From: Thermoanaerobacter ethanolicus JW 200
Lineage (GTDB): Bacteria; Bacillota; Thermoanaerobacteria; Thermoanaerobacterales; Thermoanaerobacteraceae
Assembly (NCBI RefSeq): GCF_003722315.1
Contig: NZ_CP033580.1
Coordinates: 1,673,001-1,737,000 of the forward strand
Reading direction: 5' to 3'
Length of the DNA stretch: 64,000 nt
Part shown: positions 37,780 through 42,921 of the stretch, piece by piece
Layout of the letters: each line of letters starts with the position of its first letter
Position numbering within the stretch: position 1 is the stretch's first letter
Position numbers and translations under genes: made by a program
The notes under the pieces: model-generated
The model's input: only the letters and a program-made list of their open reading frames with translations
Databases searched by the model: none
Told to the model about the DNA's origin: nothing

Positions 37780-37780
<1 letters not shown>

Positions 37781-38079
37781 TGGATCCACAAACGACTTAT
37801 GTAATTGTTGAAATGCTTATTTTTATTGCAATCTTTTACTTTTTGTTGATTTTGCCCCAACAAAGGCGCCAAAAGAAAGAGAGAGAAATGCTTGATTCTT
37901 TAAAACCTGGCGATGAGATTATTACAAAAAGCGGCTTTTATGGTAAGATCTTAAACATCAAAGACGATGTGATAACTTTAGAAATGGGAGCAGATAAGGT
38001 GAGACTAAAGATTGCAAAATGGGCAGTTGGAGGAGTTATAAGCTCAGCCAGTGACAAAAACGAAAAAGAAGAAAAGTGA
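37780..38079 (+). CDS. yajC: preprotein translocase subunit YajC
   Basis: A 99-residue protein with one membrane segment (about 8-26), PQQRRQKKEREML, and a basic-acidic cytoplasmic domain with LKPGDEIITKSGFYGKI. It works with SecDF in protein export; secD-secF lie 2.7 kb downstream. The ATG shares its A with the tgt stop; AAGGAGGAG is upstream. Confidence 0.94.
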
Positions 38080-38082
38080 TAA

Positions 38083-38107
38083 GATGCGGTTTGCCGCGTC
38101 TTTTTTT
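38083..38107 (+). terminator. intrinsic terminator after yajC
   Basis: GATGCGG and CCGCGTC pair around TTTG, followed by seven T. It closes the ruvC-to-yajC operon. Confidence 0.88.
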
Positions 38108-38167
38108 ATGTACTATGTTTAAAATAAAAAGCATACATATTAGTAAGAAAACTGTGGGGGTGAGACT

Positions 38168-38560
38168 TTGAAGGGAAGGTTTGGCATGGAAAAGGGAACT
38201 GGCATAAATATTACTGGAATTTTTACAGGAGTTTTAATAGCTTACATTATCACTCTTAGTTTTTTCATAATTTACGCTTTGCTTTTGACCTTTACAGCTG
38301 TATCTGAATTAACTTTACCTACCCTTACTTTATTAATAACCATAATAGGTATAGTTTTATCAGGTGCCTTATCTGCAAGGCATACCACCAACAAGGGTTG
38401 GCTAAATGGAGGAATTGCTGGTATTTTATATGTAACCATTATGTTAGTTTTAGGAGCATTTTTTGTAAAAGAATTAGGGCCTACTTCTTCTTGGGCAGTA
38501 AAATACGCTTGGGGAGCTGTTTTAGGAGCTTTAGGTGGTATGATAGGCATCAATTTATAG
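38168..38560 (+). CDS. TIGR04086 family membrane protein
   Basis: A 130-residue protein with four membrane segments and the conserved SARHTTNKGWLNGGIAGILY segment. TIGR04086 proteins are found beside yajC in many Clostridia and their function is unknown. TTG 38168 has GGGGGTGAG upstream; ATG 38186 is an alternative. Confidence 0.82.
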   Translation: MKGRFGMEKGTGINITGIFTGVLIAYIITLSFFIIYALLLTFTAVSELTLPTLTLLITIIGIVLSGALSARHTTNKGWLNGGIAGILYVTIMLVLGAFFVKELGPTSSWAVKYAWGAVLGALGGMIGINL

Positions 38561-38561
38561 C

Positions 38562-38590
38562 TTCAATTCCTTCTCTTTATGTGTTATAAT
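38562..38590 (+). promoter_or_regulatory. probable promoter for scfA
   Basis: A consensus TATAAT at 38585-38590 lies 17 bases after a weak TTCAAT (38562-38567). It starts 26 bases before the scfA ATG. Confidence 0.55.
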
Positions 38591-38615: not shown

Positions 38616-38753
38616 ATGAAGCATGTTATAACAATTAACAGGCCAACGTTAAAAAATAGCTTAAAAAAGCCAGGCTGTGGCGAATGCCAGGCATCTTGTC
38701 AATCAGCTTGTAAAACATCTTGCACTGTAGCAAACCAAGAATGTCAATACTAA
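38616..38753 (+). CDS. scfA: SCIFF ranthipeptide precursor
   Basis: Exactly 45 codons with six cysteines (21, 24, 28, 32, 36 and 43), the SCIFF definition. The leader opens MKHVITINRPTLKNSLKK and the core has CGECQASCQSACKTSC. The radical SAM maturase next door forms thioether cross-links from Cys to residues such as Thr in this family; characterised relatives come from Caldanaerobacter and Clostridium thermocellum. GAGGAGGGAAG precedes the ATG. The biological role of the mature peptide is not settled. Confidence 0.95.
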   Translation: MKHVITINRPTLKNSLKKPGCGECQASCQSACKTSCTVANQECQY

Positions 38754-38766
38754 TACATAATACTCA

Positions 38767-38795
38767 AAATGGCAGTAAAATAGTTACTGCCATTT
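38767..38795 (+). promoter_or_regulatory. intercistronic hairpin between scfA and scfB
   Basis: AAATGGCAGTAA and TTACTGCCATTT form a perfect 12-bp stem with a 5-base loop. Only TTT lies at its base and no T-run follows, so it is at most a leaky terminator. It could stabilise the short scfA message and lower maturase expression relative to the peptide. Confidence 0.75.
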
Positions 38796-38818
38796 AAACT
38801 TGCAATGGAGGTTAAAAA

Positions 38819-40204
38819 ATGTCAGAGTTAATGCATAAATTTAAAAGACTGGGAATGAATATTGTAGTAGATCCGGTAAGTGGCTCTATCCATGTGGTAG
38901 ACGATATTATTTATGATATTTTGGACTTTTACGAAAATCACTCAAAAGAAGAAATTGTAAATTTACTTCAACATAAATATAAAAAAGAAGATATACTGGA
39001 AGCTATTGCAGAAATTGACGAATTAAAAGAAAAAGGGCTATTATTTTCAGAAGATATATATAAAGATATTGCAGTGTCGAGAAATGATTCTGTTATAAAA
39101 GCGATGTGTTTAAATGTTGCTCACGATTGCAATTTAAGGTGCAAATATTGTTTTGCTTCTACTGGGGATTTTAAAGGTAGTCGCAAGTTGATGGATTTTG
39201 AGACGGGCAAAAAAGCAATCGATTTTTTAATAAAAAGTTCTGGGAAAAGGCAAAACATTGAAGTCGATTTTTTTGGCGGTGAACCCCTTTTAAATTTTGA
39301 AGTAGTCAAGCAATTAGTAGAATATGGAAAACAGAAGGCAAAAGAAAACAAAAAGACTATCAAATTTACTATAACAACTAACGCAGTACTCTTGGATGAC
39401 GAAAAAATAAAATATTTTAATGAAAACTTTTCTAATGTGGTACTTAGTTTAGATGGAAGAAAAGAAGTAAATGACAACATGAGAATACGCGTAGACGGCA
39501 GTGGAACTTATGATACAATAGTTCCCAAAATAAAAAAGTTTGTTGAGTCAAGAGGGAAAAAGGAATACTATGTTAGAGGGACTTTTACTGCAAAAAATTT
39601 GGATTTTGCCAATGATGTGTTGCACATTGCTGATTTAGGAGTTTATGAAATATCTGTAGAGCCGGTAGTTGAAAAAGAAGATAAAGAATATACCTTAAAG
39701 GAAGAGCATTTAGAGAGAATTTTAAATGAATATGACAGATTAGCAGAAGAATATATAGAGAGATACGAAGAAGGAAGGCCTTTTTCTTTTTATCATTTTA
39801 AAATAGATTTAGAAGGAGGGCCTTGCGTTAAAAAAAGGCTTCAAGGCTGTGGTGCTGGCTTCGAGTATATAGCGGTGACTCCCGATGGGGATATTTATCC
39901 TTGCCATCAATTTGTGGGTATTGAGGAATTTAAATTAGGAAATCTTGAAGAAGGTATAACTAATAAAAAATTACAGCAAAAATTTATGGAAAGCGATATT
40001 TACAAAAGAGAAGAATGTACAAAATGTTGGGCAAGGTTCTATTGTAGTGGAGGTTGCTTTGCAAATAACTACAACATAAATGGAGATATTAATAAACCTT
40101 ATGAGCTGGCTTGTGAAATGCAAAAAAGGCGTTTTGAAAATGCGATTGCCATAAAAGCATATCAAATGCTAAAGGGTGAGGAAAATGATTATAAAGGAAT
40201 ATAA
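38819..40204 (+). CDS. scfB: SCIFF radical SAM maturase
   Basis: A 461-residue radical SAM/SPASM enzyme. The N-terminal ~90 residues form a leader-binding (RRE-like) region. The CX3CX2C cluster is C104-C108-C111 (CNLRCKYC). FFGGEPLLNFE follows, and the C-terminal SPASM domain carries cysteines in GCGAGFEYIAV, YPCHQF, CTKCWARFYCSGGC and ELACEM for auxiliary clusters. It installs thioethers in ScfA. It starts 65 bases after scfA and overlaps the next gene by 20. Confidence 0.96.
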   Translation: MSELMHKFKRLGMNIVVDPVSGSIHVVDDIIYDILDFYENHSKEEIVNLLQHKYKKEDILEAIAEIDELKEKGLLFSEDIYKDIAVSRNDSVIKAMCLNVAHDCNLRCKYCFASTGDFKGSRKLMDFETGKKAIDFLIKSSGKRQNIEVDFFGGEPLLNFEVVKQLVEYGKQKAKENKKTIKFTITTNAVLLDDEKIKYFNENFSNVVLSLDGRKEVNDNMRIRVDGSGTYDTIVPKIKKFVESRGKKEYYVRGTFTAKNLDFANDVLHIADLGVYEISVEPVVEKEDKEYTLKEEHLERILNEYDRLAEEYIERYEEGRPFSFYHFKIDLEGGPCVKKRLQGCGAGFEYIAVTPDGDIYPCHQFVGIEEFKLGNLEEGITNKKLQQKFMESDIYKREECTKCWARFYCSGGCFANNYNINGDINKPYELACEMQKRRFENAIAIKAYQMLKGEENDYKGI

Positions 40205-40742
40205 GGGTATGAAACCCAAAATAGATGATGAGGCGTATATAGCGGAAACAGCAGAGGTTATTGGAGATGTAGAAATAAAAAAAGATGCAAATATATGGTA
40301 TGGGGCTGTGCTAAGAGGAGATATAGATAAAATAGTTGTTGGAGAAGGAACTAATATACAAGATAATTGTGTTGTACATGTTACAGAGGGACATCCCTGT
40401 TATATAGGAAATTACTGCACAATAGGACATGGGGCGATAGTCCATGCTTGCAAGATAGGAAATAGTGTGCTAATAGGTATGGGAGCAATTATATTAGATG
40501 ATGCAGAAATAGGAGATAATTGTATAATAGGAGCAGGATCACTAGTGACAGGAGGTAAAAAGATTCCTGAGGGCAGTCTTGCTTTTGGGAATCCTGCAAA
40601 AGTTATAAGGAAACTTACTCAAGAGGAAATTGAAAATATTCATCGCTCCTATGAACATTATGTAGAATTAGCAAAATTGCATTTTTCTAACTTTGGGCAA
40701 TTGACCGTTTACAATAAAAGTAATATAATAGAAAATAGTTAA
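40185..40742 (+). CDS. gamma-carbonic anhydrase family protein
   Basis: A 185-residue left-handed beta-helix (hexapeptide repeats such as VIGDVEIKKDANIW). Putative metal His ligands are in NCVVHVTEGHP and in GHGAIVHACKIG, the gamma-CA triad. ATG 40185 follows GGGTGAGG; an upstream GTG (40176) lies in that site. It overlaps scfB by 20 bases, so it is in the SCIFF operon. Many such proteins are not proven carbonic anhydrases. Confidence 0.88.
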   Translation: MIIKEYKGMKPKIDDEAYIAETAEVIGDVEIKKDANIWYGAVLRGDIDKIVVGEGTNIQDNCVVHVTEGHPCYIGNYCTIGHGAIVHACKIGNSVLIGMGAIILDDAEIGDNCIIGAGSLVTGGKKIPEGSLAFGNPAKVIRKLTQEEIENIHRSYEHYVELAKLHFSNFGQLTVYNKSNIIENS

Positions 40743-40761: not shown

Positions 40762-41997
40762 ATGAGAAGTAGAGGTTTTATCAAATTTTTTTCTGTAATC
40801 ATTGTTGCAGCAATAGTTGCATATATAGCCTTTTTTGGAATAAAGGCAGGCAATTATTCTATAAGCCCAGTACAGGATCACATGAGATTGGGGCTAGACT
40901 TAAGAGGAGGCGTTTATGTATTAGAAGAAGCACAAGGTAATGTTACACAAGATGCGATAAATAAAGCTATTGCAGTCATAAGGAACAGGGTAGATGCTCT
41001 TGGCGTGACACAGCCTGTAATAAGTCAACAGGGGTCAAATAGAATTCGTGTAGAGTTGCCTGGCATGAATGACCCTGATAGGGCAATAGAGATAATAGGT
41101 AAAACTGCTCAATTGAAGTTTGTTGGTCCAGATGGTCAGGTTATTTTAACAGGTGCTAATGTAAAAGATTCAAAAGCAGTATATGCTCAAACTCAAACAG
41201 GAATCCAGCAACCAGAAGTTACGTTAGTACTTGATGCTGAAGGAACAAAAAAATTTGCAGAAGCCACTCAAAAATTTTTAAATCAACCTATTGCAATAGT
41301 TTTAGATGATAAGGTAATATCAGCTCCGACAGTGCAAAGTGTTATCACAAATGGAAATGCGGTGATTACTGGTTTGAAGGACTTCCAAGAAGCATCTGAA
41401 TTAGCTACACTTATAAGAGCTGGTTCTTTGCCTGTCACATTAAAACCCATAGCTTATAGTTCTGTAGGTGCAACGTTAGGTCCGAGTGCTTTGAATGCTA
41501 GCTTAAAAGCTGGTATATACGGTACTTTACTGGTTATGTTGTTTATGATAGCTTTTTATAGATTACCTGGTTTTGTAGCAGACTTAGCCTTATTAATATA
41601 TATATTAATAAACTTCATCGTTTATGCGTTATTTAATATAACATTAGATTTGCCAGGTATTGCAGGTTTCTTATTGTCAATAGGTATGGCTGTCGATACT
41701 AATATTTTAATTTTTGAAAGATTTAAAGAGGAATTGTGGGCAGGTAAAAGCATAAGACCTGCTTTAGATGCCGGCTTCGCGAAAGCTTTTAGGGCAGTAT
41801 TTGATGCTAATATAACCACTATAATTGGAGCTATTATCCTTTTCTACTTGGGTTCAGGAAATGTTAAAGGATTTGCTTTAACACTTCTAATAGGTGTGAC
41901 ATCCAGCTTATTCACAGCTATAACTGTAACGAGATTTTTGTTGCATGCGCTTCTTGATATGGACTTGACAAAGAATATAAAACTTTATGGAGCATAG
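40762..41997 (+). CDS. secD: protein translocase subunit SecD
   Basis: A 411-residue membrane protein. One N-terminal membrane segment, an extracellular P1 domain (LGLDLRGGVYVLEEA, then VIRNRVDALGV), and five more segments with SIGMAVDTNILIFERFKEE. It uses the proton or sodium gradient to pull secreted proteins. AAGGAGG precedes ATG 40762. Confidence 0.96.
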   Translation: MRSRGFIKFFSVIIVAAIVAYIAFFGIKAGNYSISPVQDHMRLGLDLRGGVYVLEEAQGNVTQDAINKAIAVIRNRVDALGVTQPVISQQGSNRIRVELPGMNDPDRAIEIIGKTAQLKFVGPDGQVILTGANVKDSKAVYAQTQTGIQQPEVTLVLDAEGTKKFAEATQKFLNQPIAIVLDDKVISAPTVQSVITNGNAVITGLKDFQEASELATLIRAGSLPVTLKPIAYSSVGATLGPSALNASLKAGIYGTLLVMLFMIAFYRLPGFVADLALLIYILINFIVYALFNITLDLPGIAGFLLSIGMAVDTNILIFERFKEELWAGKSIRPALDAGFAKAFRAVFDANITTIIGAIILFYLGSGNVKGFALTLLIGVTSSLFTAITVTRFLLHALLDMDLTKNIKLYGA

Positions 41998-42009
41998 GAG
42001 GGGAATTGA

Positions 42010-42921
42010 GTGAACCAACATAGATTTCATATAGATGTCATTGGCAAAACGAAAATTTGGTTTGCGATATCAGGGATTATGATTTTAATTGGCGTAATAG
42101 CTATGCTTGTAAATGGATTTAATTGGGGAATAGATTTTACTGGCGGAACAATAATGGAGTTTAAAATTGGCAAATCTTTTGATACGAAGGATATAATTAA
42201 AATTTTAAACGAATATAAAGTTAAAGACTATCAAATACAAAAAATAGGGACAAAAGGTGATCATGTTTCAATAAAGACAAGTCCTATTTCCAATGAAACG
42301 CGGCTTTCAATAATAAAAGATATCGAAAAAAAATACAACTTAACAGAAAATGACTTAATAATGTCACAGCAAGTTGGGCCTTCTTTAGGAGCTGAGATAA
42401 AATTTGGAATGATACTAGCGCTTTTAGTAGCTTCTGCAGTGATGCTTACCTATTTAGGCTTTAGATTTAATTTTGAAATGAGCTTGGCAGCAGTTGTTGG
42501 ATTATTGCATAATGTGATAATATTAATTTCAATTTACGCTATTTTCAAAATAACAGTAGACTCGCCTTTTATAGCGGCTCTTTTGACAGTATTTAGCTAT
42601 TCTCTTCACGATACTATTGTAATTTTTGACAGAATAAGAGATAATTTAAAAAGTATGAGAAGATCTGATTATGCAGAAATTGCGAATGTGAGCATAAACC
42701 AGACTCTTACACGGTCGATAAACGTAGTTTTGACAGTATTAATTATGCTAGTTTTAATGTATTTCTTAGGACCTAAGGCATTGAAAGATTTCGCATTGCC
42801 TTTACTTATTGGTATAACTTGGGGAGCATATTCTTCGATATTTATCTCTACTCCTCTTTGGGTATTAATTAAAAATAGGGAAAAGAGAAGAAAAACCTCT
42901 AATAAACCTGCAAAAGCTTAA
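42010..42921 (+). CDS. secF: protein translocase subunit SecF
   Basis: A 303-residue partner of SecD with six membrane segments. GIDFTGGTIMEFKIG opens the periplasmic-type domain and SLHDTIVIFDRIRDN is the SecF signature. GTG 42010 follows GGAGGGG closely. Separate secD and secF genes differ from the fused secDF of Bacillus. Confidence 0.95.
   Translation: MNQHRFHIDVIGKTKIWFAISGIMILIGVIAMLVNGFNWGIDFTGGTIMEFKIGKSFDTKDIIKILNEYKVKDYQIQKIGTKGDHVSIKTSPISNETRLSIIKDIEKKYNLTENDLIMSQQVGPSLGAEIKFGMILALLVASAVMLTYLGFRFNFEMSLAAVVGLLHNVIILISIYAIFKITVDSPFIAALLTVFSYSLHDTIVIFDRIRDNLKSMRRSDYAEIANVSINQTLTRSINVVLTVLIMLVLMYFLGPKALKDFALPLLIGITWGAYSSIFISTPLWVLIKNREKRRKTSNKPAKA

Follow-up and report, generated by a model that had tools for sequence, protein, structure and literature searches.

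A conserved SCIFF peptide and its maturase between yajC and secDF in Thermoanaerobacter ethanolicus

In the window (the whole stretch of 64,000 nucleotides of Thermoanaerobacter ethanolicus JW 200 DNA that was analysed), a gene for a small cysteine-rich peptide and a gene for a radical SAM enzyme lie among genes for protein export. The locus raises the question of what kind of system the two genes form, whether their position says anything about what the peptide does, and what role its product might have. The reading preferred here, to which we give a probability of roughly 0.6, is that this is an ordinary SCIFF system with its own promoter and a most likely internal role, its product not serving as a species-specific secreted signal and having no part in the Sec machinery, as client or as component.

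The local gene order is queA, tgt, yajC, TIGR04086, scfA, scfB, a gamma-carbonic-anhydrase-like gene, secD, secF, a UbiB-like kinase gene and recJ, with queA and recJ named by eye from the sequence. The genes closest to the pair are as follows.

37780..38079, + strand: yajC (TIGR00739, 81 bits).
About 38192..38560, + strand: gene for a TIGR04086/DUF3792 membrane protein (89.6 bits, cut-off 30).
38616..38753, + strand: scfA, SCIFF ranthipeptide precursor (TIGR03973, PF13165, conservation over 175 sequences).
38819..40204, + strand: scfB, radical SAM/SPASM maturase (TIGR03974, PF04055, PF13186, alignment to CteB).
40185..40742, + strand: gene for a gamma-carbonic-anhydrase-like hexapeptide protein (PF00132 over its cut-off).
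40762..42921, + strand: secD and secF (TIGR01129, 381 bits; TIGR00966, 298 bits).

The initial annotation had placed the pair between yajC and secD-secF, which is right for the span, but yajC is not the direct neighbour, since the TIGR04086 gene lies between (its start is uncertain, TTG 38168 being possible). The reported overlap of scfB with the carbonic-anhydrase gene amounts to 20 bases with a start of the latter at ATG 40185, but falls to zero with the in-frame ATG 40209. The carbonic anhydrase name itself is probable, the protein scoring 201.6 bits against NF050158, under the cut-off of 250, and the gene is absent at several related loci. That no dedicated exporter or protease gene is adjacent is borne out at the locus. 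Further upstream, a locus of the same genus has an insertion between queA and tgt (L078:5006-7974) with a 531-residue open reading frame that by eye resembles a PAS sensor, and in another locus six kb separates the same two genes (L100:12301-18366), with open reading frames that by eye resemble a multi-subunit cation antiporter.

The identity of the pair is clear. ScfA has 45 residues, from ATG 38616 to a stop that ends at 38753 (open reading frame listing and sequence), and is laid out as a leader (residues about 1-20) and a cysteine-rich core (21-45), the cysteines being at positions 21, 24, 28, 32, 36 and 43, with a spacing that aligns with that of 174 other ScfA sequences. It scores 83.4 bits against TIGR03973 (cut-off 50), which places it among the SCIFF precursors, and 85 bits against PF13165 (cut-off 27). 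The leader of CteA (PDB 5wgg, chain B) aligns with residues 1-21 at E = 0.012, a weak match to a chain of only 21 residues.

ScfB, with 461 residues, reaches 689.3 bits against TIGR03974 (cut-off 425) and 632 bits, below the cut-off of 855, against NF040492, the look-alike model for a ScfB-like exception family. PF04055 and PF13186 are both over their cut-offs. The spacing of the radical SAM motif, CX3CX2C, is found at Cys104, Cys108 and Cys111, and the SPASM region holds cysteines 344, 362, 400, 403, 409, 413 and 432. The best solved structure by sequence is that of CteB (PDB 5wgg; 634 bits over residues 4-450), in the alignment to which the cluster cysteines of CteB are kept in ScfB. The N-terminus of ScfB aligns with the region of CteB that one review calls an RRE, and is the predicted leader-binding domain. 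The 45-residue, six-cysteine peptide gene and radical SAM maturase first proposed are therefore confirmed in their coordinates, both models being over their cut-offs; the family match is far beyond chance, and by these scores scfA and scfB are an ordinary SCIFF/ScfB ranthipeptide system of a type already known and common in clostridia.

Other ScfB-like proteins were seen in passing. Three more radical SAM/SPASM matches (126, 94 and 76 bits) lie within 17 kb in the same genome, outside the window (G000:C1:337098-353639), and are perhaps another peptide-modifying cluster. A second, weaker ScfB-like protein (69 bits) is encoded downstream of the scfAB pair of one further locus (L033:6195-7526).

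The system is widespread. A gene for ScfA was found in all 36 searched genomes of the class, and over the cut-off in 163 of the 199 sampled genomes of the phylum, with one match each; ScfB matches over the cut-off were found in 160 of these 199. A 164th scfA match (in genome G156), weak at 22 bits and inside a 1138-residue frame, was dropped as chance. The TIGR03973 model search found no scfA in 14 control genomes, Bacillus subtilis among them. A scan of named genomes gave at least 595 matches, 592 of those confirmed and 80 kept; among the matches listed are records titled Ruminococcus, Acetivibrio and Selenomonadaceae. The earlier statement that the system is known in Clostridia is right, and several scanned records are labelled Selenomonadaceae or Selenomonadales. 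It is worth adding that Veillonella parvula has a radical SAM cluster, sactipeptide-like and described as increasing in expression below pH 5.5 (PMC6284299), that may belong to the SCIFF systems.

Eleven core residues are identical in all 175 ScfA sequences compared: C21, C24, C28, Q29, S30, A31, K33, T34, S35, N40 and C43. This set includes the window's sequence and consists of 164 sequences and 11 weaker-scoring ones added later, the G156 fragment being left out; because the family's own model was used to gather it, conserved members are favoured. Among other positions, C32 and Q41 are each kept in 174 sequences, T37 in 172, V38 in 166 and C36 in 163. In 12 of the 175 (L014, L020, L062, L133, L135, L136, L146, L151, L153, L158, L162 and L169) Cys36 gives way to Ile or Leu, and the six-cysteine peptide is there really a five-cysteine one. 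Judged from the alignment, the conservation of scfA is what stands out at an otherwise ordinary locus.

The same alignment is relevant to conflicting published accounts of the cross-link. A thioether from Cys32 to Thr37 has been reported in vitro for Tte1186a/Tte1186 (Bruender 2016), and a bond from Cys32 to the C-gamma of Thr34 for CteA/CteB co-expressed in E. coli (Hudson 2019), both as described in the reviews PMC8172795 and PMC8326336. Thr34 is invariant and Thr37 varies. This pattern favours Thr34 as the acceptor without settling it, K33 and S35 being just as invariant as T34, and it gives a testable point. In three loci (L021, L028 and L047) Thr37 is Gly or Ser and Thr34 is retained; in L047 Cys32 is also replaced, by Ser, and the donor cysteine is gone. 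On a quick ScfB tree, the ScfB proteins of these three group as a single clade.

By analogy with the characterised homologues Tte1186 and CteB, ScfB would bind the ScfA leader through its N-terminal recognition domain, and would use SAM-derived radicals to join Cys32 by a thioether to a nearby threonine, more likely Thr34 than Thr37. Mature ScfA would then carry a bond of the ranthipeptide type, from the cysteine sulfur to the beta or gamma carbon of the acceptor.

Does the position of the genes say anything about what the peptide does? Gene contexts were compared at 84 scfA loci: 80 regions (mostly one per family label), three of 20 further regions, and the window. Six are of the window's family, three (L097, L099 and L100) were chosen since scfB was thought to be remote, and many of the loci are cut by contig ends. 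A context of the Sec type (near tgt, yajC, TIGR04086, secD or secF) is found at 24 of the 84. A second context (near purA, dnaB, an M23 peptidase, an MA-type peptidase or murA) is found at 31 under a loose rule that accepts any of the five gene types within 10 kb, and 29 loci have neither. The Sec-type loci carry 16 family labels and always have the same arrangement: on a single strand, any yajC and TIGR04086 found precede scfA and any secDF found follows it. Among the matches listed in named genomes, 80 loci divide into 36 of Sec type, 5 of the second type and 39 with neither, many of them cut by contig ends; in one of the Sec-type loci (L245) TIGR04086 is on the other strand. On the quick ScfB tree, with 55 assigned rows, at least four switches between the two contexts are needed, and the contexts accordingly look old and sticky.

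One reading of this arrangement is functional: the peptide would be released through, or act on, the Sec translocon or the TIGR04086 protein. It draws on the 24 loci, with their 16 family labels, that have all or some of the order tgt-yajC-TIGR04086-scfA-(scfB)-secDF on a single strand, on the presence of some tgt, yajC, TIGR04086 or Sec gene near scfA at the 36 named loci among the matches listed, and on four loci (L034, L068, L099 and L100) in which scfA stays between TIGR04086 and secD without scfB; yet the other 60 of the 84 loci are elsewhere. The TIGR04086 protein is moreover about as frequent without scfA as with it. It is found in 173 of the 199 genomes of the phylum sample, comprising 144 of the 163 that have scfA and 29 of the 36 that lack it (Fisher p = 0.27, counted by hand), and also in Bacillus subtilis among the 14 controls, where the scfA model found nothing. 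Because the two frequencies are similar, TIGR04086 does not visibly depend on scfA, and from its distribution the gene is a neighbour that is not dedicated to SCIFF.

The transcription signals around the pair also bear on this reading. The relevant sites are as follows.

38081..38110, + strand: terminator-like hairpin and T run after yajC, with a 9-pair stem.
38582..38590, + strand: putative scfA promoter, extended -10 TGTTATAAT, conserved among relatives.
38767..38795, + strand: hairpin between scfA and scfB, with a perfect 12-bp stem and without a T run (-17.7 kcal/mol, z = -3.9).
40701..40729, + strand: putative secD promoter TTGACC-17-TATAAT, with 11/12 consensus bases, the best in the scanned region.

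The sequence TGNTATAAT is found upstream of scfA in all 16 loci inspected of the order (14 aligned loci from two families, together with L002 and L271 from a third), and the flanking bases differ. The extended -10 is not among the sites of the sigma-70 scan, which also demands a -35 hexamer. The terminator-like site after yajC is kept in 6 of 7 aligned loci, as is the promoter-like site before secD, including two loci without the carbonic-anhydrase gene. The number of such sites in the region is not above that in shuffled sequence (14 promoter-like sites against 11.5, and 2 terminator-like sites against 1.4 expected), and the weight of these signals therefore rests on their conservation. They lie between scfAB and its neighbours on both sides, and suggest that scfAB is its own transcription unit, set between yajC and secDF, and does not share one with either.

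ScfA also has no hydrophobic signal region in its leader: among 164 sequences the best mean hydropathy over eight residues has a median of 0.36 and a highest value of 1.99, and the hydrophobic core of a Sec signal peptide is not present. The suggestion in the initial annotation that maturation or release may use the Sec machinery is thus disfavoured on four counts, these being the separate transcription signals, the 60 loci elsewhere, the lack of a signal region, and the similar frequency of TIGR04086 where scfA is missing. Neither Sec nor TIGR04086 was retained as a partner in the main reading, and we consider a functional Sec neighbourhood quite improbable. No open-licence paper was found that links ranthipeptides in clostridia with secD. 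In our judgement, inherited gene order explains the neighbourhood better than a functional link, although the single order and strand across 16 family labels, together with the four loci that lack scfB, may exceed what inheritance would give.

The hairpin directly behind scfA deserves closer attention. Relatives also have hairpins between scfA and scfB. Within the 120 bases that follow scfA, a terminator-like hairpin with a T run stands at 96 of 164 loci; shuffled sequences have one in 60 of 820 cases (7%) and upstream stretches in 21 of 164. For a strong hairpin of any kind the corresponding figures are 113 of 164, 139 of 820 and 52 of 164. The window's hairpin is counted solely in the latter class. 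At the 11 weaker-scoring loci added later the terminator-like hairpin is rarer (4 of 11, as for any strong hairpin). The scan used a home-made pattern with a single threshold. A likely effect of such a hairpin is that the precursor is more abundant than the maturase: with scfA transcribed from a promoter of its own, the hairpin that follows would give an excess of peptide over enzyme.

The two genes are not always together. In the literature adjacency is treated as a rule, with 234 radical SAM genes described as lying no more than 500 bases from scfA and all scoring well above the TIGR03974 cut-offs (PMC5300114). Here, scfB was not found beside scfA in 9 of the 84 loci, two of which (L099 and L100) had been chosen because scfB was remote; leaving out the loci chosen for remoteness, the figure is 7 of 81. 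On the quick tree, ten of 17 remote ScfB genes form one clade, with an SH-aLRT support of 97. Its members are L081-L085, L090, L091 and L094-L096, some of them second copies and some the only copy over the cut-off that was seen; the second copies include those of genomes G033 and G067, both of which also have the usual scfAB pair. The neighbours shared by remote ScfB genes are, by eye, housekeeping genes and a pair of M16-type peptidases. Where scfA lies apart, ScfB probably acts in trans.

Two other views of the remote enzymes were rejected. They are not the exception family of NF040492, as the 10 of 17 that were scanned all pass TIGR03974 and are under the NF040492 cut-off. Nor was a different substrate recognised beside them: the small cysteine-rich open reading frames near the 17 genes include no recognisable precursor, and the plausible ones are zinc-ribbon-like.

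What, then, might the product do? The open-licence literature covered that treats SCIFF by name or accession gives no function beyond reported mutant effects. Disruption of the genes in C. beijerinckii strongly lowered sporulation genes and raised agr, in a study titled as quorum sensing (Chen 2020, as described in the reviews PMC8102284 and PMC8326336). One of these reviews adds that sporulation could not be linked to the system in C. ljungdahlii.

The mutant transcriptomes in solventogenic clostridia fit a secreted quorum-sensing peptide, which a housekeeping protease would cut after the leader, and which would then be exported and sensed by neighbouring cells; the same effects would be expected of a regulator acting within the cell. 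The leader end is suggestive of cleavage, being G in 147 and GG in 100 of 164 sequences. A GG leader end is a common cleavage motif. The window's own peptide has PG before Cys21, and its genome has one C39 peptidase domain (G000:C1:1336238-1336639, a single domain in a 372-residue frame). However, C39 peptidases are present in just 32 of the 199 genomes, against 163 with scfA, too few for double-glycine processing and C39-transporter export to be the general route, and C39 was rejected as the general processor. Across the 84 loci, the two contexts share no exporter or protease gene that keeps a fixed place. At 9 of the 84, open reading frames resembling ABC-transporter ATPases (OppD by eye) are encountered within 7 kb, at scattered positions; genes for M23, MA-type and HtrA-type peptidases are recurrent in one context alone. 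The core is nearly identical across the phylum sample, unlike that of variable bacteriocins or receptor-matched signals, and such a signal would not tell species apart. A species-specific signal is for this reason less likely, and a quorum-sensing role as a whole seems to us rather unlikely. In our judgement an intracellular, non-species-specific role is to be preferred to a secreted signal.

The same invariant core, in a near-universal single copy in the sample, would also suit a different product: a small redox or metal cofactor that unlinked enzymes excise from that core, as happens with PQQ and mycofactocin. Of the 84 loci, 17 have thioredoxin-reductase-like genes scoring above 400 bits; 16 of the 17 belong to the second context, and there is no strong reductase match at the Sec-type loci, where the weak matches (45-61 bits) look GltD-type by eye. 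A thioredoxin reductase as partner in both contexts was rejected on account of these weak matches. Nor do the two contexts share a further tailoring enzyme beside scfAB, and we regard a cofactor precursor as doubtful. The names TrxB, GltD, M16, OppD and antiporter, where no family search stands behind them, are by eye.

The preferred reading is accordingly of an ordinary SCIFF system whose product would act inside the cell, or leave it by a general route, as a physiological factor nearly identical across clostridia. A more speculative extension, which we put forward tentatively, is that SCIFF is a core component of the clostridial cell and not a secondary metabolite: an intracellular cross-linked peptide, or a cofactor derived from it, that is one near-invariant molecule phylum-wide, made in excess by means of the terminator behind scfA, and modified in some lineages by a distant maturase (from the separate ScfB clade that is not beside scfA in the sample). 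The testable points are the Thr34 acceptor, the hairpin-set imbalance of peptide and maturase, the action of ScfB in trans where the genes lie apart, and the absence of a Sec requirement.

Comparison with known systems places these points in context. Tte1186a/Tte1186 of Caldanaerobacter subterraneus subsp. tengcongensis is the same kind of precursor and maturase pair, compared here through reviews; Cys32, Thr34 and Thr37 have the same numbers in the window's ScfA. CteA/CteB of Clostridium thermocellum (thermocellin, PDB 5wgg/5why) resembles the pair in both maturase and leader, but the Cys32-Thr34 bond reported for CteA is a predicted thioether in the window's ScfA. In Acetivibrio straminisolvens (L256), which we take to be a near relative of Clostridium thermocellum, the order is scfA-scfB-secD-secF. 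The SCIFF systems of C. beijerinckii and C. ljungdahlii are of the same family, and theirs is the only mutant phenotype met in the literature covered (Chen 2020, through the reviews). Freyrasin (PapA/PapB) of Paenibacillus polymyxa is likewise described as a ranthipeptide made by a related SPASM enzyme, like ScfB (PMC8172795, PMC8326336), but differs in having six Cys-Asp bonds, and the window's ScfB scores 295 bits against the PapB model NF047865, where 340 are required. The comparison sharpens the question of what needs almost the same cross-linked peptide in so many clostridia.
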